A stretch of DNA of 64,000 bases, taken from Deltaproteobacteria bacterium (GTDB lineage: Bacteria > Myxococcota_A > UBA796 > GCA-2862545). Under the pieces are notes generated by a model. It worked only from the letters and a program-made list of their open reading frames with translations. It was not told where the DNA came from and searched no databases. Of this stretch, positions 1,195-21,270 are shown one piece after another (positions within the stretch are counted from its first letter, which is position 1; the number at the start of each line of letters is the position of its first letter). A program made the position numbers and the translations under genes. The stretch spans positions 1 through 64,000 of the forward strand of contig SBGP01000020.1 in NCBI GenBank assembly GCA_006226595.1. Reading direction: 5' to 3'.

Positions 1195-1634
1195 GGCGTG
1201 TCCAGGATCAGCGTCACCGGGCCATCGTTGAGGAGCCGCACGTCCATGTGCGCCCCGAAGACGCCCCGTCCGACGTGGGTCACGCCCTCTTCGCGCAACA
1301 TGACGCAGAAGCGCTCGTACAACGGCTCGGCGACGTCTGGATGGGCCGCCCCGACGAAGCTCGGCCGGCGTCCCTTGCGGCAGTCGCCGTACAGCGTGAA
1401 CTGACTCACCACCAGTGCACCGCCGCCGATGTCGACGAGGCCCAGGTTCATCCGCCCCTCGTCATCGGAGAAGATCCGTAGGCCGGCGATCTTGCGCGCG
1501 AGCCAGCGCGCCTCGGCCTCCCCGTCTCCGGGACCCACGCCGAGGAGCACGAGCACGCCCGTGTCGACCTCGCCGGTCACCGCGCCGTCCACGGTGACCG
1601 AAGCCCCGCGGACGCGCTGAATCACGGCTCTCAT
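1191..1634 (-). CDS. dtd: D-aminoacyl-tRNA deacylase
   Basis: Hydrolyses D-amino acids mischarged onto tRNA, a translation proofreading step in the cytosol. The 147-residue length fits DTD. The family motifs are present: SQFTLYGD (77-84) and the C-terminal GPVT (138-141, the Gly-cisPro chiral-recognition loop, in the context NDGPVT). ATG start at 1634. Its TGA overlaps the GTG of the next gene (suhB), so dtd, suhB and the gene at 1-440 form one minus-strand operon. It is 19 bp downstream of the kinase-like gene and may share its transcript. Confidence 0.95.
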
Positions 1635-1653
1635 GCGCCCGTGCTCGCGCCGA

Positions 1654-3426
1654 TCACGGGGCCTTGCACGACATGGTCGAGCCGGAGACCGTGCACGCCA
1701 CGGTGCCGCTGCCGCCGATGGAACCCGCCCACATGCCGCCGCTGGCGTCGTCGATGATGCGACAGGCCACCGGGAGCTGCAGTCCGTCGAACTCCATCGC
1801 CAGCGAGCCGTTGATCTCGGCCTTCTGGCCGTCGCCACAGCTGATGAACGCGAGAGCGGGGGTGCGGATGGTGACCTTGGCGATGCCGGTGGTCGGAGCC
1901 GGCTTCGGCGCCGGCTTCGGCGCGGGGGCCGGGGCCGGCTTCGGCGACGGACGCGGCGACGGCTTGGGCGACGGCTTCGGCGAGGGCTTGGGAGCCGGCT
2001 TCGGCGCCGGCTTGGGCTCGGGAGCCGCCTCGGGCGCGGGCTCGGGCGTACCGCCACCACCCGTGTCGCGGGTGGTCGAGGGCTGCGGTGCCGGCGCGGG
2101 ACCGGTCACAGCGGGGGTGTCGTCGCCCTGGTTCATGAACCACACGCCACCGCCGACGGCCGCACCGCCGAGGCACACGAGGATCATCAGGAACACGGCG
2201 CCACCGGCGATCAGGCCGGTGCTGCCACCGCCACCACCGGCATCCTGTGGCGGCGGCGGCGAGTAGCCGGGCCCGGGACCCGCAACCGGGCCGCCGGCAA
2301 TGGGACCGCCCGCCACCGGACCACCGGCGACGGGGCCACCGGCCACCGGTCCACCGGCCACCGGCCCACCGGCCACGGGACCACCCGCGATTGGCGGTGC
2401 CTGCGGCGGAGGCGGCGCCTCGGCGGCGGGCGCGTCGCGCTTGGCCGTGCGCTCGCCCTGCTTGCCACGCCGCTTCGGGCGCGGGGCGGCATCACCACCC
2501 TCGGCCATCGCCTTCATCTGGTCGAGGCTCCAGAAGCTGGTGCTGGAGCCGCCACCGACCTGCGGGCGGTAGGGCTGGTTCTCCGCGAGGTGCGGATCGC
2601 GGCTGACCTCTTCTTCGTCCGGCTCGTTGGCGAGCGCGGCCTTCATCGCATCGCGCGACCAGAAGGCCGTGGCCTGGCCCTGCTTGCCGCCCGACGAGAA
2701 GTCGATGCCGCCGCCGCGGGACAGTGGACCCTGCGCGGTGATCGGGCCGCCGAGATCCTCGGAGGGCGCCTGGAGCTTGGACGGGTCGCGGAGCAGGCCA
2801 TCGGCATCGCGACGTTCGCCGCCACCTTCGATGGCCTCGGCACCCCAGTCGGCGATGTGCGGGCCATCCACGGCATCGGCGAAAGCGATGAACGTACGCC
2901 ACAGGTCGATGGCAGGCGGGCGGTCATCGGGCTCGTAGGAGAGCATCTTGGCGATGAACCACTGGACGTCGCCAACCATCTCTTCGGGCAGCTCGTCGAA
3001 GTTGATCGCGAGGACGGCATCGATGATCGCGTCGTCGTACTCATCAGGATCGTCGGGGAGTTCGCCGAGATCGTTCGGAGAGAACAAGCGGAACGCGATG
3101 TAGCCGAGGCCCCACAGATCGGAGGCGTAGCCGGGCCGACCCTCGGGCGCGAAGGTCTGGTCGCGCTCCTCGCCGAAGCCCTCGACGCTGACCGCACCGA
3201 GCTCGTCGATGTAGACGTCGCGGGGCACGATGTCACCGTGACCCTCGTCGTCCTGCTCGGCGATGTCGAGGATCTCGCACAGCGCGGCGATGATCTCGAG
3301 GCAGATCTTGAAGGGCGGCAGGCCGTCCTTGAGCAGGGATTCGAGATCCAGCCCGTACGCACGCCCCTCGACCGCGTCGACGCCGCCGTCGGCGCCGATG
3401 GTTCGGCAGTAGTGCCAGTCGCTCAA
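1654..3426 (-). CDS. Membrane protein with degenerate, N-lobe-less protein kinase domain
   Basis: 590 residues. Residues 23-185 match the C-lobe of a Ser/Thr kinase: [12 protein letters not shown] (63-74) sits at the catalytic loop, but Lys is missing, and VEGFG (81-85) replaces [16 protein letters not shown] (100-112) resembles subdomain IX. There is no glycine loop or VAIK lysine because only about 22 residues precede the C-lobe. Then come two copies of an FWS-D-MKA motif (255-262, 298-305), a (GGPVA)n tract (348-383), one membrane segment (404-430), a Pro-Lys tract (469-512) and a Cys-containing C-terminal domain, likely extracytoplasmic. Start chosen as TTG at 3426 because GGAGGAG precedes it; an ATG pair near 3479 lacks such a site. 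Probably a non-catalytic signalling or scaffold protein. Confidence 0.75.
1891..2022 (-). repeat. Pro-Lys (PKPAPKP/PKPSPKP) repeat tract
   Basis: In-frame low-complexity stretch encoding alternating Pro and Lys with Ala/Ser, residues about 469-512 of the kinase-like membrane protein, just after its membrane segment. It is likely a rigid wall-spanning or periplasm-spanning spacer linking the anchor to the C-terminal domain. Confidence 0.8.
2278..2385 (-). repeat. 15-bp tandem repeats encoding [10 protein letters not shown]
   Basis: About seven near-identical 15-bp units encode repeated Gly-Gly-Pro-Val/Ile-Ala in the linker before the membrane segment of the kinase-like protein. The units differ mostly at wobble positions. 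Such a tract is prone to length change by slippage and would alter only linker length because 15 is a multiple of three. Confidence 0.85.
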
Positions 3427-8668: not shown

Positions 8669-9691
8669 ATGGCAGACGTCCGCATCACCCAACTGGTCAA
8701 GCGCTATGGCGACAACGAGGTCGTCCGGGGGCTCGATCTGCACGTGCAGGACGGGGAGATCGTGTGTCTGCTCGGACCGTCGGGCTGCGGCAAGACGACG
8801 ACGCTGCGCATGGTCGCGGGACTCGAGACGCCGAGCGGTGGCACGGTGCACATCGGCGACCAGCTCGCCTCCGGACCCGGCACCTTCGTGCCTCCCGAGA
8901 AGCGCCAGCTCGGCATGGTCTTCCAGTCCTATGCCGTGTGGCCGCACATGACCGTGCTCGACAACGTGACCTTCCCGCTCAAGGTCGCCGGACGCGACGC
9001 GGACGCCGCGGACCTCGCACGCAAGGCGCTCGCCAGCGTGAAGCTGGAGGGGCTCGAGGCCCGCTACCCGCACCAGCTCTCCGGAGGGCAGCAGCAGCGC
9101 GTCGCCCTCGCCCGCGCGCTGGTTGCCGAGCCACGGGTCCTGCTGCTCGACGAGCCGCTGTCCAACCTCGACGCGCGCCTGCGCGAAGAGATGCGCGACG
9201 AGATCCGAGCCCTGGTCAAGCGCATTGGCGTGACCGTGATCTTCGTCACCCACGACCAGGAAGAGGCCCTCGGTCTCTCGGATCGGGTCGCAGTGATGGA
9301 GCGCGGCGTGATCCAGCAGCTCGACACCCCCGAGGGCCTGTACGAGCGGCCCGCGAATGGTCTCGTGGCGCGCTTCGTGGGCACCCTCAACGAGCTTCGC
9401 GCCGAGCGCACCCTGCACGGGGCCGCGGTGGCCGGCGTCGACGTCGCGGCTTCTCCCACCACCGGAGCGCCGGACTCGGGCGCGTGTGTGCTCGCGTTCC
9501 GTCCGGAGAACGCGCGGCTCGGAGAGGCCGGCATTCCCGGCGAGATCGTCGCCAAGGCCTACCTCGGACCCACCGTGCGCTACCGCGTGCGCATCGACGG
9601 GCAGCCGGTCCTGGTGGACGGCCCCCGCAACCTGGCCGTCGGCGATGCGGTGCACGTCGCCGTCGACCGCGCCCTGGTGCTGGCCTCGTGA
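8669..9691 (+). CDS. Fe3+-type ABC transporter ATP-binding protein
   Basis: 340-residue ATPase that powers the importer at 5843-8571. Walker A GPSGCGKT (36-43), signature LSGGQQQR (137-144), Walker B LLLDEP (158-163), the H-loop in FVTHDQEEA, and a C-terminal TOBE domain (about 245-335). This domain set fits the FbpC/PotA/MalK group. ATG start; its TGA overlaps the GTG of the haem enzyme, so the two are translationally coupled. Confidence 0.92.
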   Translation: MADVRITQLVKRYGDNEVVRGLDLHVQDGEIVCLLGPSGCGKTTTLRMVAGLETPSGGTVHIGDQLASGPGTFVPPEKRQLGMVFQSYAVWPHMTVLDNVTFPLKVAGRDADAADLARKALASVKLEGLEARYPHQLSGGQQQRVALARALVAEPRVLLLDEPLSNLDARLREEMRDEIRALVKRIGVTVIFVTHDQEEALGLSDRVAVMERGVIQQLDTPEGLYERPANGLVARFVGTLNELRAERTLHGAAVAGVDVAASPTTGAPDSGACVLAFRPENARLGEAGIPGEIVAKAYLGPTVRYRVRIDGQPVLVDGPRNLAVGDAVHVAVDRALVLAS

Positions 9692-10974
9692 TCGACACGG
9701 TCGTCGTCGGAGGCGGCATCAGCGGCCTTACCCTCACGTGGCGCCTGATGCGCGAGGGACGCGAGGTCGTGCTCCTCGAGGCGAGCGGCCGGGTCGGCGG
9801 CACCATCCGCAGCACCGTGCACGAAGGCATCACCGTCGAGCACGGGCCGCAAGCCTTCCCGACGACGGCCCTGCCCGTGTTCGACCTGATCACCGAGCTC
9901 GGCATCACCGACGAGGTGCTCGTCGCACGCGAGGCAGCCCGCAAGCGCTTCCTGCTCCACAAGGGCAAGCTCGAGCCGCTCCCGCAGTCCTTCGCAGACA
10001 TCGCGCGCTCGCCGCTGCTCGGTATGCGGGCGGTGGGCCGGGCCATGGGCGAGCCGCTGGTCCGCAAGGCGCCGAACCCCGGCGAGTCGGTGTACGACTT
10101 CATCTCCCGGCGCTTCGGCAGGGCGGTGGCCGAGCGCTTCGCGACCGCACTCGTCGCGGGCGTGTACGGCGGCGATGCCCGCGACCTCGAGGTCGGCGCC
10201 GCGTTCGAGGACTGGGTGCACCTCGAGCGCACCCACGGCTCCGTACTCAAGGGCGCCATGGCGCGCCCGCCACACCCCGCTCACGCGCCGAACAACCTGT
10301 TCACCCTCCGCGGTGGCATGGAGCGCGTCACCGCGGCTCTCGGCGAGGCCCTGCGCGAGCAGATCCGGTTGAACACGCCCGTCGAGCGCATCGAGCGCGA
10401 CGGCGACACGCTCGTCGTGCGCGGTCCGGACCTGCGCGCCCGCGAGGTCGTGGTCACCGTGCCCCCGGGACGCGCCGCAGCCATGCTCCCCGAACTGGCC
10501 GACCTGCGCGGCATCCCCACCGCCCCCATCGCCGGCGTGCACCTCGCCTTTGATGCGCTGCCCGAGCGAACCGGCTTCGGATGGCTGGCCCCGATGGACG
10601 CGCGGCGTGACGTGCTCGGCTGCCTGTGGGTGTCCTCGGGCTTCCCGGACTTCGCCGGCGGCAAGACCGTGAAGCGCCTGATGATCGGCGGCACGCGGGA
10701 CCCGGGTGCGGTCGAGCTCGACGACGACGCACTCGTGGCGCGAGCGGCGCGCATCCTCCGCGAGGTCGAGGGCGTGCACGCCGAGCCCGTGTTCACGCAC
10801 GTCGCACGCTCGCGCATCGGCATTCCGCAGTACGTCCGCGGCCATCTCGCGCGCATGCGACGCCTCCAGGCCGCGATGCCTGGGCTGTCCTTCCTCGGCT
10901 GGGGCTACACGGGCGTAGGCGTGAACCACTGCGTGCAGGCGGCCGGTTCCTGGCGAGGCTCCTCAGCGAGTTAG
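9688..10974 (+). CDS. Protoporphyrinogen oxidase (HemY/HemG-type)
   Basis: FAD enzyme oxidising protoporphyrinogen IX to protoporphyrin IX, the penultimate haem step; 428 residues. The N-terminus VIDTVVVGGGISGLT is a dinucleotide-binding fold, followed by LLEASGRVGGT typical of the amine-oxidase/PPO superfamily, and the C-terminal GWGYTGVGVNHCV closes the FAD site. Start GTG overlaps the ATPase stop. Its coupling to iron import makes physiological sense because ferrochelatase uses its product with Fe2+. Alternative: coproporphyrinogen oxidase of the same fold. Confidence 0.85.
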   Translation: MIDTVVVGGGISGLTLTWRLMREGREVVLLEASGRVGGTIRSTVHEGITVEHGPQAFPTTALPVFDLITELGITDEVLVAREAARKRFLLHKGKLEPLPQSFADIARSPLLGMRAVGRAMGEPLVRKAPNPGESVYDFISRRFGRAVAERFATALVAGVYGGDARDLEVGAAFEDWVHLERTHGSVLKGAMARPPHPAHAPNNLFTLRGGMERVTAALGEALREQIRLNTPVERIERDGDTLVVRGPDLRAREVVVTVPPGRAAAMLPELADLRGIPTAPIAGVHLAFDALPERTGFGWLAPMDARRDVLGCLWVSSGFPDFAGGKTVKRLMIGGTRDPGAVELDDDALVARAARILREVEGVHAEPVFTHVARSRIGIPQYVRGHLARMRRLQAAMPGLSFLGWGYTGVGVNHCVQAAGSWRGSSAS

Positions 10975-10998
10975 GCTGTTTCCCCATCCGGAGGACCC

Positions 10999-11334
10999 AT
11001 GAACACGCTGATCTGCACCCGCACCTGAAGCGCCTGTCGCAAGGCGGTCGCCTTGCTCGACGAAAAGGGCGTGTCCTACACCTACCGCGAGTACACGAAG
11101 GATCCCCTCACCGAGGACGAGATCCGCGAGGTACTCGGCCAGCTCGGCATGAGCGCGTCCGACGTGCTCCGCGCACGCGACGCGAAGAAGGCCGGGCTCA
11201 CGGGTGACGAGAGCGACGAGCAGCTGGTCGCGCTGATGGCGGAGAATCCCCGCCTGCTCCAGCGCCCCATCCTCGTCACCGAGCGCGGCGCCGCCCTCGG
11301 CCGTCCGGTCGAGAACCTCGAAGCCGTGCTCTGA
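10999..11334 (+). CDS. Probable selenoprotein, ArsC/Spx-family redox protein (in-frame TGA = Sec10)
   Basis: Starts ATG at 10999 behind GGAGGA and reads MNTLICTRT, TGA, then SACRKAVALLDEKG to a stop at 11332-11334 (111 residues with selenocysteine). The TGA (11026-11028) falls where Spx/ArsC relatives have the redox cysteine, making a U-S-A-C motif like their CxxC. The rest is typical of the family: EYTKDPLTEDEIREVL, then LLQRPILV and GRPVENLE. A 6-bp hairpin with a GGUC loop follows the TGA at the right distance for a bacterial SECIS. Likely a thiol/selenol oxidoreductase; arsenate reduction is possible but unproven. It sits 24 bp after the haem enzyme. A gene caller would start it at TTG 11053 and lose the active site. 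Confidence 0.85.
11029..11062 (+). promoter_or_regulatory. Candidate bacterial SECIS element
   Basis: Perfect 6-bp stem CAAGGC (11040-11045) with GCCTTG (11050-11055) closing a GGTC tetraloop (11046-11049), the same apical loop as the E. coli fdhF SECIS. The stem extends by G11039-C11056 and, after a two-base bulge, by C11038-G11059, T11037-A11060 and G11036-C11061. The loop lies 17-18 bases after the TGA, inside the spacing known for SelB recognition. Confidence 0.8.
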
Positions 11335-13016: not shown

Positions 13017-13123
13017 CGCCGCGGCATTAATGTCGCGCCTCGCATGGGGCGCGACGGCCCCGAACCCCCGAAAGCCGCCTCCACACGCCCTCTTCACGGC
13101 GATGTTGACGCGGCTCTCACACA

Positions 13124-13139
13124 TGGCACATCCGTTGCA
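13124..13139 (+). promoter_or_regulatory. Sigma-54 promoter before the DUF4157 gene
   Basis: TGGCAC, five bases, TTGCA: both halves match the sigma-54 consensus and GG (13125-13126) and GC (13137-13138) are ten bases apart. Predicted start of transcription near 13150, leaving a leader of about 57 bases before ATG 13207. Needs an enhancer-binding activator, none of which is in the window. Confidence 0.75.
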
Positions 13140-13206
13140 TCGTCTTCGAGTGCCAGCCTCTGCTGGCTCTCTCTCCTCCGCACTCCTCAGCGGAACTGGA
13201 GCCTCT

Positions 13207-14724
13207 ATGAAGACCCTGCGACGTGCGTCGTCCGCTATTTCTGCGCCTTCTTCCCAGGACGTCGATTCCGGAGAAGAAGTCCACGAGAACGGCTCTGCCC
13301 AGGAGCAGCTCGAAGCGCAGGGTCAGAGCACCGGCCCCTTCGACAGCCCCCTGCTCAACGCGGCGCTCGAAGCCTCGTTCGGCCAGTCGCTGAGCGGTCT
13401 GTCGGCGGACTGGGCCAGCGCCGAGAACGAGGCCATCGGGGCGGACGCGAGCTGCGAGGGCTCGGCGATGAGCTTCGGGGGCAGCATCTCGGAGAACGCG
13501 GCGGACACCGCGTCGATGGAGATCGTCGGCCACGAGGTCGCCCACGCGCTGGCCGGCGGCGGCAGTGGTGAGACCGTGCTCGACACCGAGAACGACCAGG
13601 GCGAGGACAAGGCCGACGAGGCGGGCGTCCGCTTCGCCGAGTGGGCCAGCGCGGGCTTCGAGGGCCCAGCCCCCGAGCTGAAGGCGGCGACGGGCGGAAA
13701 GGCGGCCATCCACCGCCACGGCGGCGCCACCCTCAGCGGCCGTCCCATGCTGCGTCGCGGTAGCCGCGGTGGCGAGGTCAGCGCGCTGCAGTCCCTGCTC
13801 AACGCCCTGGGCCACGCGCTGTCCGTCGACGGCATCTTCGGTCGCCGCACCGAGTCCGCGGTGCTGGCCTACCAGCGCTCGAAGCGACTGGAGATCGACG
13901 GCATCGTCGGCCCGAACACCGCGAGCAGCCTGAACGGCGCCCACGCGGGCACGCACAGCGGAAGCGGTCAGGGCAGTCAGAGCGGTCAGAGCGGTCAGAG
14001 CACCCAGGCCGGTGTCACCGGGCGTCCCGAGCTGCGCCTCGGCCGTCGGGGCACGCTGGTCGAAGCCCTGCAGCGGCTGCTCAACACCAAGGGGGGCAGC
14101 CTGCGCGTCGACGGCGACTTCGGGCCCGCCACCGACAACGCGGTGAAGCGCTTCCAGGCCGCCAACAACCTCGAGGTCGACGGCGTGGTCGGCCCCAACA
14201 CCGCGGCCAAGCTCAACGATGGCAGCAGCAACGACCTGACCTCGGGCAACGCGAACGGGGGACAGGGCAACCAGCCCTTCGCCGGCAACGAGGCCTACGA
14301 GAACCTGCGCGACGCGGTGATGGCCGCTGCCGAGTCCCACCTCGGCAAGCCCTACTACTGGGGCGCCGACGGCCCGAGCATGTTCGACTGCTCCGGCTTC
14401 GTGCTCTACGTGCTCCGCCAGGAGACCGGGCTGATCAACTGGGGCGACGACACCGCCGCGGGCATCAGCAACCGCCTGCCGAAGACCACCACGCCGAAGC
14501 GTGGGGACTGCGTCTTCTACCGGGGCCGCTCCGGCATCAGCCACATCGAATTCTCGACGGGCAATGGCAGCGAGACCCTCGGAGCGAGCGGCGGAGGCCC
14601 GAGCACCAAGGGCGACAACCCGCGGGCCAAGGTGAAGTTCGGCAACTACAACCGCGACAGCCGCGCGAAGTCCTTCGGCAGCATCGAGGGCCTGATCCAG
14701 GCCAAGTTGTCCGGGGGCCGGTGA
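13207..14724 (+). CDS. DUF4157-like, double PG-binding, NlpC/P60 cell-wall hydrolase (eCIS-type effector candidate)
   Basis: 505 residues without a signal peptide. Residues 45-117 resemble DUF4157, ending in GHEVAHALAGG with HEVAH at 109-113; that domain is common on cargo of extracellular contractile injection systems. Then two PG_binding_1 repeats (about 177-245 and 272-337), each with VDGxFG and DGxVGPNT, separated by a Gly-Ser-Gln linker, and an NlpC/P60 peptidase domain (365-495) with catalytic Cys395 in FDCSGF and His446 in ISHIEF. It should bind peptidoglycan and cut its stem peptides. Start ATG 13207 (GGAG upstream). A sigma-54 promoter lies upstream. Confidence 0.82.
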   Translation: MKTLRRASSAISAPSSQDVDSGEEVHENGSAQEQLEAQGQSTGPFDSPLLNAALEASFGQSLSGLSADWASAENEAIGADASCEGSAMSFGGSISENAADTASMEIVGHEVAHALAGGGSGETVLDTENDQGEDKADEAGVRFAEWASAGFEGPAPELKAATGGKAAIHRHGGATLSGRPMLRRGSRGGEVSALQSLLNALGHALSVDGIFGRRTESAVLAYQRSKRLEIDGIVGPNTASSLNGAHAGTHSGSGQGSQSGQSGQSTQAGVTGRPELRLGRRGTLVEALQRLLNTKGGSLRVDGDFGPATDNAVKRFQAANNLEVDGVVGPNTAAKLNDGSSNDLTSGNANGGQGNQPFAGNEAYENLRDAVMAAAESHLGKPYYWGADGPSMFDCSGFVLYVLRQETGLINWGDDTAAGISNRLPKTTTPKRGDCVFYRGRSGISHIEFSTGNGSETLGASGGGPSTKGDNPRAKVKFGNYNRDSRAKSFGSIEGLIQAKLSGGR

Positions 14725-17401: not shown

Positions 17402-17508
17402 AGCCACACCCCGGAAGGCCCCTTCTGGGCGCTACTCCCGGCTCCTGCAAGAAACTCGTCATGCAAATGGGCGAGAATCCGGGCATCGTCCGTTGGGGGG
17501 CCCGCTCC

Positions 17509-20500
17509 ATGACCTCGGTACTCGCACTTCTCTGGATTCCGTTCGCGCAGGCGCAGACGTGCAGCAGCGACCCGCCGGCGGCCTGGCTCGACAGCGATGC
17601 CGCGGCCTGGGTGGCACTCCCGGGTCCCACGAGCGGCGCCCTCGGTGACGCCGCCGGTGACGCGCAGTCGCAGTGGGACGGCCTCGGCACGCCTGGGGTG
17701 TACGAAGAAGCGGGCGGCTACTGGGCGAAGTCCGTGGATGGGAACACGGCGTACTTCCGCATCCGCCTCGCGAGGAGCCCCGCCTCCAGCTCGGCGAACA
17801 AGTGGGCCTCGTTCGGCTTTCACACGCTGCTCGAGTCCGATGACAACACCACGGACGCGAGCTGGGACTTCCAGGTCGTGCTCGACGGCGTCGGCGACAC
17901 GGTCGAGATCCGCGAGAACACCATTCCCGAGGGCGGGGGTGCGGGCGGCTGGTGCACCGATGCCGCCGAAGCGGTGAACTTCTGCTACCCGGCGACCGTC
18001 GACAACAGCGGCGTCGACCTCGCCGGCCGCTTTCCGGACTACGCGCGGGTCTCGCCGGCGTGCAGCGACTTCGGCGCGACCACGCCCGGTTCCTGCGTGC
18101 CCGCGGACTGCAAGGCCGACGTCGACGGCGATGGCGTCTGGGACGGCACCCCCGAGTGTACGGACCGGTTCCTCACCGTGCAGGTGCCGTGGGCGGACTT
18201 CGTCGCCGCCACCGGCATCACCGACCTCGATCTCGCCCCGATGATCATGGGCACGGGCTCTAACGGCTCGGACATCTCCAAGGACGTGCTCGGCGCCGAG
18301 TGCACCGACAGCTGGGACGACGTCGCCGGTGGTCAGCGCGACTTCGACGGCGACGGCATCCTCGACCGCGACGAGCTCAACGTCACCAACACCGACTACC
18401 GCGACCCGGACACCGACGACGACGGCATTCCCGACGGCGTCGAGGTCTATGGAGACGACCTCACGCCGGGTACCGGCGACGAGACGGGCCTCGACCCGAA
18501 CGACCCGGATACCGACGGGGACGGCCTGTGCGACGGCACTCGCGCCGACAACGAGTCCGACGGCATCGACCCCGCCGATGCGTGCACCGGCTCCGAGATC
18601 GACGAGGGCACCGACCCCACCGATGCGGACAGCGATGACGACTCGATCAACGATGCCGACGAGGTGGCGGGCGGCACGAACCCGAACGACCCGGACACCG
18701 ACGGCGACGGCCTGTGTGACGGCACCCGCACCGACAACGACTCGGACGGCGTGGACCCGGCGGACGCCTGCGTGGACACGACCGCCGATCCCGACCCGCT
18801 CGATGCCGACAGCGACGACGACGGTCTGCTCGACGGCGTCGAGGTCGCGAACGGCACCAGCCCGACCGACGCCGACTCCGACGACGACGGCCTGTGCGAC
18901 GACACTCGCGTCGACAACGACAACGACGGCATCGATCCCGCCGACAGCTGCGACGGCTCCGAGGTCGACGCGGGTACCGACCCGCTCGACGCCGACACCG
19001 ACGACGGCGGCCGCACCGATGGTCAGGAAGTGCTCATCGACGGCACCAACCCCGTCGACAACCCCGCGGACGACGTCCTCGACACCGACGGCGACGGACT
19101 CACCGACTACGTCGAGATCAACGAGACGAACACGGACCCGAACGACGCAGACACCGATGACGACGGCATCTCCGACGGGGACGAATACTACGGCCCCGAC
19201 GGCAACCCGGGCACCGGTGACGAGACGAACCCGGCCGATCCGGACACCGATGGCGACGGCATCTGCGACGACACGCGTACCAACAACGACACGGGCAACA
19301 GCACCATCGAGCCCGCGGATGCGTGCGTGGGCGGTGAGGTGAGCGAGTCGGGCACCGACCCGGCCGACGCCGACAGCGACGACGACGGCATCCCCGACGG
19401 CAGCGAGGACGTGAACGGCGACGGCGTGCTCGACAGCGGCGAGACGGACCCGAACGATCCGGACACCGACGACGACGGACTGTGCGATGGCACCCGCGCC
19501 GACAACGACGGCGACGGCATCGACCCGACCGACCCCTGCGACGGCAGCGAGATCGTCGAGGGCACCGACCCGCGGGATGCAGACAGCGACGACGACTCGC
19601 TCTCAGACGGCGACGAGGCGGGCGGCTCGACGAGCCCCACCGACCCGGACACCGACGGCGACGGCATTTGCGACGGACCGCGTACCGACAACGACGGCGA
19701 CGGCGTGGACCCCGCCGACCCGTGCGACGACACGATCACCGACCCGGACCCGAGCGACGATGACGCCGACGACGACGGTCTCACCGACGCGGAAGAGCTC
19801 GCCAACGGCACCGATCCCACCGACCCCGACTCCGACGACGACGGCCTGTGCGACGGCACCCGCGCCGACAGCGAGAGCGACGGGATCGACCCGCCGGACC
19901 CGTGCCAGGGCTCCGAGGTCGCCGAAGGTACCGACCCGAACAACCCGGACACGGACGGGGGCGGCCGCACCGACGGTGAAGAGGTGCTCATCGACGGCAC
20001 CGAGCCGGTGAACACGCCCGGCGACGACCTCCAGGACACCGACGGCGACGGACTCACCGACTACTACGAGGACAACGTCTCCAACACCGACCCGAACGAC
20101 GCCGACAGCGACGACGACGGCATCTCCGACGGCGACGAGGTCGACGGCAGCGACGGCACGCCGGGCACGGGCGACGAGACCGACCCGAACAGCCCCGACA
20201 CCGACGGTGACGGCATCTGCGACGACGTGCGCGTCGACAACGAGAGCGATGGCGTGCTCCCCGCCGACACCTGTGTCGGTGGCGAGCTGACGAACGGCAC
20301 CGACCCCACCGACGCCGACACCGACGATGACGGCCTCACCGACGGCGAGGAGGACCTCGACGGCGACGGTGTGCTCGACCCGGGCGAGAGCGACCCGAGC
20401 GACCCGGACACCGACGGTGACGGCCTGTGCGACGACACCCGTGCCGACAACGAGACCGACGGGATCGAGCCCGCCGACACCTGCTCCGGCTCCGAGGTCG

Positions 20501-21270
20501 ACGAAGGCACCGACCCGCAGAACCCCGACACCGACAACGACGGACTCACCGACAGCGAGGAGGTCGACACCTACGGCACCGACCCGACCAACCCCGACAC
20601 CGACGGCGGTGGCCGGACCGATGGCCAGGAGGTGCTCGAGGACGGCACCGAGCCCGTGAACACGCCGAACGACGACCTGGTCGACAGCGATGGCGACGGG
20701 CTCACCGACGGGGAGGAGATCGACCTCGGCACCGACCCGACGGATCCGGACTCCGACGGGGATGGCATCAACGATGGCGACGAGGTCGACATCTACGACA
20801 CGGACCCCCAGAACCCGGACTCCGACGACGACGGACTGCTCGACGGCGAGGAGATCACCGACACCAACACCGACCCGAACGACCCGGACTCCGACGGAGA
20901 CGGCCTCGAGGACGGTGAGGAGATCGACGTCTACAACACCGACCCGAACGACGAGGACACGGACGGGGACGGCCTGACCGATGGCGACGAGGTCGACGTC
21001 CACGACACCGACCCGACCAACGATGACAGCGATGACGACGGCCTGCTCGACGGCGAGGAGGTCGACACCTACGGCACCGATCCGAACGACGCCGACACCG
21101 ACGACGGCGGCGTGCCGGATGGCGAGGAAGTCGACCTGGGCCTCGACCCGCTCGACCCGATCGACGACGTGGAGCTCGAGTTCGTGGGTTGTTCCTGCGA
21201 CGCGAACGCGCCGGGCACCCCGCTGTGGCTCGCCCTCCCGCTCCTGCTCGGGCTGCGCCGCCGGCGCTGA
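17509..21270 (+). CDS. Giant thrombospondin type 3 repeat surface protein with MYXO-CTERM-like tail
   Basis: 1253 residues. The signal peptide [16 protein letters not shown] leads to a globular domain (about 20-270) with several cysteines. Then roughly 31 calcium-binding type 3 units by my count (DxDxDG cores such as [10 protein letters not shown]), extremely rich in Asp (about 275-1220). The end is GCSC, a short spacer, [12 protein letters not shown] and RRRR: a MYXO-CTERM-type sorting signal, normally processed by a myxosortase and leading to surface attachment via the cysteine. I start at ATG 17509 since it opens a clean signal peptide after GGGGGG; ATGs at 17461 and 17467 are in frame. 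Probably a calcium-stiffened stalk or adhesin. Confidence 0.88.
18360..21140 (+). repeat. Degenerate tandem array encoding thrombospondin type 3 units
   Basis: Repeats of mixed length with a core such as GACACCGACGGCGACGG, each encoding DTDGDG-like calcium sites. Longer super-units of roughly 300 codons share VLIDGT-P-N-P and [10 protein letters not shown] blocks (near 19020-19110, 19980-20060 and 20610-20710), suggesting duplication of large segments. Confidence 0.8.

Follow-up and report, generated by a model that had tools for sequence, protein, structure and literature searches.

A predicted selenocysteine-containing ArsC subfamily in Myxococcota-type bacteria

The locus described here raises the question of whether a gene with a TGA at its catalytic position is damaged, begins farther downstream, or is translated through that codon as a selenoprotein. 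It lies in a window of 64,000 nucleotides, the whole stretch of DNA that was analyzed, at positions 1 to 64,000 of contig SBGP01000020.1 (assembly GCA_006226595.1, Deltaproteobacteria bacterium).

An ArsC-family frame with a TGA at codon 10

Read from its ATG, the frame meets a TGA at the tenth codon and then stays open until the TGA at 11332-11334, with the motif U-S-A-C-R-K-A around the first TGA and QRPI and GRP farther on. The start codon with its good ribosome site, the TGA followed by an intact frame, and both family motifs had been claimed in the original prediction, and all were found in place (Table 1). It had also expected automatic annotation to truncate the gene to the TTG at 11053; indeed, the standard code leaves the TTG-started frame as the sole ORF. 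Full translation of the gene would require codon 10 UGA to be decoded as selenocysteine (Sec). We infer that such insertion takes place; the selenoprotein reading of the gene, which we hold with a high degree of confidence, is strongly supported by the sequence comparisons below.

Table 1. Positions of the features of the locus and its upstream neighbor within the window
Feature	Position	Strand	Remarks
Protoporphyrinogen oxidase	9688..10974	+	TIGR00562, 213.7 bits versus cut-off of 97.85; same-direction upstream neighbor
Shine-Dalgarno-like GGAGG	10990..10994	+	4 nt 5' of the ATG at 10999; seen in the sequence
Predicted ArsC-family selenoprotein gene	10999..11334	+	111 aa; Sec read as residue 10; stop TGA at 11332-11334 (codon 112)
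Cys6 codon	11014..11016	+	Invariant (34/34); replaces ArsC His8
In-frame TGA, residue 10, read as selenocysteine	11026..11028	+	At the position of catalytic Cys12 of R773-type ArsC
Cys13 codon	11035..11037	+	Second residue of UxxC, putative resolving Cys; invariant in the clade
Putative SECIS apical hairpin	11039..11056	+	Perfect 7-bp stem (11039-11045/11050-11056); GGUC loop (11046-11049)
TTG-started ORF	11053..11334	+	93 aa; without the active site; sole ORF under the standard code
Arg58 codon	11170..11172	+	ArsC Arg60; invariant (34/34)
Arg89 codon	11263..11265	+	ArsC Arg94 (LQRPI); invariant (34/34)
Arg102 codon	11302..11304	+	ArsC Arg107 (GRP); invariant (34/34)

A search of the order gave the window gene and 10 orthologues with 53 to 74% identity, each with exactly one TGA and always at the same codon. 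Across 379 genomes of the phylum, 33 matches scored at least 133 bits, 32 of them with one TGA and one without, while all the others among the matches listed scored 97 bits or less and contained no stop. This gap in scores (133 versus 97 bits) separates the sequences as a clade of their own. At codon 10, the 34 clade rows have TGA in 32 cases and TGC in the remaining two (L058 and L162); homologs carry Sec (TGA) or Cys (TGC or TGT) there, and canonical ArsC has Cys. Where relatives are named, they are MAGs whose titles read Deltaproteobacteria, Myxococcales, Myxococcota, and Polyangia. Viral contigs contained neither a relative nor a copy of the SECIS-containing stretch, and plasmids gave only canonical ArsC-type matches with <60% identity. 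Taken at the level of sequence, this appears to be an ArsC-family clade that is almost wholly Sec containing and spread across many Myxococcota-type lineages.

Decay of the gene, or a sequencing or assembly error, could account for a premature TGA seen in a single MAG, but the chance that the codon is a real stop of either origin is negligible and the comparative data refute it: the TGA, the frame intact on both sides, and a hairpin are kept in 31 other distinct sequences of many families, the protein is strongly conserved on either side of the codon, and independent assemblies show TGA at the same place, which excludes a sequencing error.

The hairpin past the UGA and the selenocysteine machinery

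A hairpin begins 10 nt past the UGA, and its GGUC loop begins 17 nt past it. A perfect 6-bp stem with a GGUC loop 17 to 18 bases from the TGA had been predicted; the loop and its distance held, while the stem has 7 bp. The SECIS of Escherichia coli fdhF shares the GGUC apical loop, which starts 18 nt after its UGA (confirmed in the sequence) versus 17 nt here, but in our case the apical stem is uninterrupted over its 7 bp, lacks the bulged U in its 5' strand, and is of another sequence.

The fold energy of the region as a single sequence was unremarkable (z of about -1.3), and nothing relevant was matched in Rfam at either gathering or relaxed thresholds. For this reason, folding of the one sequence could not by itself establish a SECIS, and it is comparison that does. 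With a stem that hardly varies, covariation is weak evidence when taken alone, so the case is built on synonymous conservation, compensatory changes, and the loss of GGUC in the Cys relatives. Among 13 orthologues, the conserved codons within positions 14 to 20 had a mean codon entropy of 0.17 bits, versus 1.32 for the conserved codons in the rest of the gene; Leu19 was TTG in 13/13, a codon used for only 19 of the 167 other Leu codons. Standard pairs occupied 216 of 217 pair cells in the stem (31 distinct sequences, with L171 left out), in two lineages a G-C pair had become A-U through synonymous changes at both of its bases, and four members had Ser, encoded by AGC, in place of Arg14 with both stem bases preserved. 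The sequence left out, L171, has a different hairpin, still with 7 bp, closed by a CGUGC loop. In both TGC relatives the GGUC loop was lost through a change of GTC to GTG; L162 additionally has CTG in place of TTG, and L058 has CGA in place of CGC, which breaks one pair. Together, these patterns show selection on the hairpin, as would be expected of a SECIS element. In the tree, L162 falls within the Sec sequences, so that Sec was there most likely replaced by Cys, with the SECIS decaying afterwards.

The genome to which the window belongs (7.23 Mb, 117 contigs, 97% complete) contains all four components of the Sec machinery: selA (489 bits), selB (297 bits versus a cut-off of 242, with the winged-helix domains SelB-wing_2 and SelB-wing_3), the tRNA-Sec gene selC (63 bits versus 47; SeC(tca) by ARAGORN), and selD (257 bits), spread over four contigs. 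The hairpin would bind the winged-helix domains of SelB, which would bring Sec-tRNA(Sec) to the ribosome so that the UGA is read as Sec. A SECIS model search of the same genome returned this one site only; the next best match had an E value of 0.2, which gives no clear sign of another gene with this element.

Over the order (63 genomes), tRNA-Sec was found in 48 and selA in 52. The carriers of the gene number 12 genomes including the window's own (G000, G001, G007, G010, G011, G012, G020, and G059 to G062), a tally based on the eleven rows with TGA from the order search; selA was present in all 12, and tRNA-Sec was detected in all of them but G012 and G060, where it was missed. Among 25 more carrier genomes and gaps examined, 17 had tRNA-Sec and the others were mostly incomplete MAGs. 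The carriers in which it was not found (G012, G060, G065, G178, G206, G274, G278, and G283) are likewise mostly incomplete. Both TGC-carrying genomes retain tRNA-Sec. A genome of the same genus (G018, 97% complete) has selA and tRNA-Sec and lacks the Sec-ArsC gene, which is therefore patchily distributed. In G000 (contig C1, 118010-118906, L126), selD lies within an open frame of 745 codons and is perhaps fused to another domain.

Two further explanations can be judged against these data. A general reassignment of the stop codon, or a leaky suppressor, with TGA read as Trp or Cys, would keep the frame open too. This is extremely improbable, given that the same gene terminates in TGA, that a conserved hairpin sits exactly at the position required by SelB, that the GGUC loop is gone from both Cys relatives, and that the Sec machinery is complete. 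Hardly more probable is an internal start, at TTG 11053 or elsewhere, that would make the 93-aa product the real protein. The TTG ORF is present in nearly all members, but mechanically so, because this TTG encodes Leu19 within the hairpin and is accounted for by the stem. Besides, the residues before it include an invariant L4, C6, T9, and C13, and the frame of the two TGC relatives is open over its entire length.

Protein family, neighborhood, and predicted activity

The selenoprotein predicted here passed the Pfam ArsC model (PF03960, 48.7 bits versus a cut-off of 24) and also matched Pfam Glutaredoxin. TIGR00014 was the best NCBIfam model, below its equivalog cut-off (79.4 versus 106.05 bits), with 79 to 88 bits for the other clade members tested, while the Spx/MgsR model TIGR01617 was not passed (56.9 versus 75.05 bits). 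An AlphaFold2 model with Cys substituted for Sec (pLDDT of 92.9) came closest to the ArsC of Yersinia pestis and that of E. coli R773, with a TM score of 0.93 to each, versus about 0.8 to Spx. In R773 ArsC, Cys12 is catalytic, and His8 and Arg60/94/107 have active-site roles, the three arginines binding the anion. Residues were mapped by alignment of 34 clade members to an R773-type ArsC (L174): Sec10 aligns with Cys12, and the extra invariant Cys6 gives the clade an active-site signature of C-x3-U-x2-C. The clade is thus like TIGR00014/YfgD and R773 ArsC in fold, length, catalytic position, equivalents of the three arginines, and best NCBIfam score, but it has Sec for Cys, UxxC for the usual CxxS, and Cys6 for His8. 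Spx of Bacillus subtilis also has an ArsC fold, with a CxxC redox switch; in contrast, the window protein scores lower on Spx profiles and TM, keeps the ArsC arginines, and has a GRP motif typical of ArsC. The ArsC/Spx family first proposed for it could hence be narrowed: by profile score, modeled fold, and conserved arginines, the protein resembles ArsC more closely than Spx.

The original prediction also suggested a redox role in iron import and heme oxidation from the location of the gene. Its same-direction upstream neighbor is a protoporphyrinogen oxidase, 5' of which lies a solute-binding-protein ABC transporter to which the models assign no definite substrate. The other clade members examined had neither of the two nearby, and such a role is unsupported since the neighbors are not conserved. 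No conserved neighbor appeared apart from an upstream gene (about 220 to 300 aa) beside Sec-ArsC in L051, L124 (G062), and L125 (G061), common to these three related f6 genomes only and absent among the window's neighbors. Elsewhere in the window, most of a 1,269-aa protein (17461-21270) is built from D-x-D-x-D-G repeats that look thrombospondin type 3-like by eye, and its C terminus is an RRRR tail. In a 564-aa ORF (13030-14724), inspection by eye alone picked out a DCSGF (NlpC/P60-like) motif and repeated stretches that resemble peptidoglycan-binding sequence.

A selenoprotein of this family might also be a Spx-like regulator or a general seleno-redoxin instead of an oxyanion reductase. This is the alternative that survives best, although we hold it to be less likely than not. 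The UxxC resembles the CxxC switch of Spx, Pfam Glutaredoxin matches, Cys6 replaces the His8 of ArsC, and no ars genes were noticed in the sampled neighborhoods; against it stand the three anion-site arginines, all invariant, a fold nearer to ArsC than to Spx, and a TIGR00014 score above those of the Spx models. From residues and fold, the predicted activity is probably that of an oxyanion reductase.

The protein is most likely a selenol-based reductase of arsenate or a related oxyanion or thiol. In such a thioredoxin-fold reductase, Sec10 would lie beside the three anion-binding arginines, and its selenolate would attack either an oxidized thiol or the oxyanion that they hold, which would be arsenate, if ArsC is a guide, or another of its kind. 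Cys13 would resolve the selenium intermediate, leaving a UxxC selenenylsulfide to be reduced by a thioredoxin/glutaredoxin system, possibly with help from the invariant Cys6, which may be a second resolving thiol or may tune Sec10. Arsenate itself is a guess from residues and fold, because we noticed no ars genes in the neighborhoods sampled around clade members, the annotation of which was not exhaustive. A fuller proposal, which we put forward tentatively, is that of a distinct, mostly Sec-fixed ArsC subfamily of many Myxococcota-type lineages, hidden from annotation, in which C-x3-U-x2-C with Cys6 for His8 would form a three-chalcogen relay with its own path of reduction, the enzyme perhaps acting on something different from arsenate.

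Relation to known selenocysteine-containing ArsC proteins

Sec-containing ArsC is already known as a kind: a Sec-containing arsenate reductase with UxxS was described from the Sargasso Sea in 2005 (PMC1088965), Sec-containing ArsC 1 (UxxS) and ArsC 2 (UxxC) from the GOS data in 2008 (PMC2398784), and a 2026 review lists both forms (PMC13188914), where NF041106 also appears. The 2005 protein likewise belongs to COG1393/ArsC and has Sec in the catalytic position, but it is UxxS, whereas the clade has UxxC plus the extra Cys6. Arsenate reductase 2, or the UxxC selenoprotein (PMC2398784; NF041106), is closer, being of the ArsC family with UxxC and an in-frame UGA with SECIS. However, at E ≤ 1e-3 NF041106 (cut-off of 85 bits) did not match the window protein, and the other clade members tested gave 19 to 24 bits or no match. 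The clade may overlap individual environmental sequences from 2008. As far as the literature searched shows, what is new is a separate, apparently almost wholly Sec-containing C-x3-U-x2-C clade, together with its frozen SECIS and the two Cys relatives that occur in nature.

Other Sec-ArsC candidates were seen along the way. In the same order, L035 (G024, 1501-1809, minus strand) and L037 (G036, 1501-1791, minus strand) encode a second ArsC/Spx-like protein with an active-site TGA (STUTTCRDAR), in each case followed by a hairpin of another sequence; this protein stays under the cut-offs of all NCBIfam models, NF041106 included. L059 and L114 (Gemmatimonadota) and L084 (Acidobacteriota) make up another group of ArsC proteins with Sec, in which the motif is UTTC; at 107 bits, L114 clears the TIGR00014 cut-off, and the hairpins of L059 and L114 have CGUGA loops.

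A standard-code gene caller would lose the active site in every Sec-containing member examined, and as the only standard-code ORF is one without it, the subfamily is hidden from annotation. The strict synonymous conservation defines a precise putative SECIS for these bacteria, usable in searches for more selenoproteins, and the two natural TGC relatives with a decayed SECIS offer a clean comparison for asking what advantage Sec has over Cys in ArsC-type enzymes. With this clade, lineages in which the literature searched had reported no such protein would gain a well-defined subfamily of selenoproteins.
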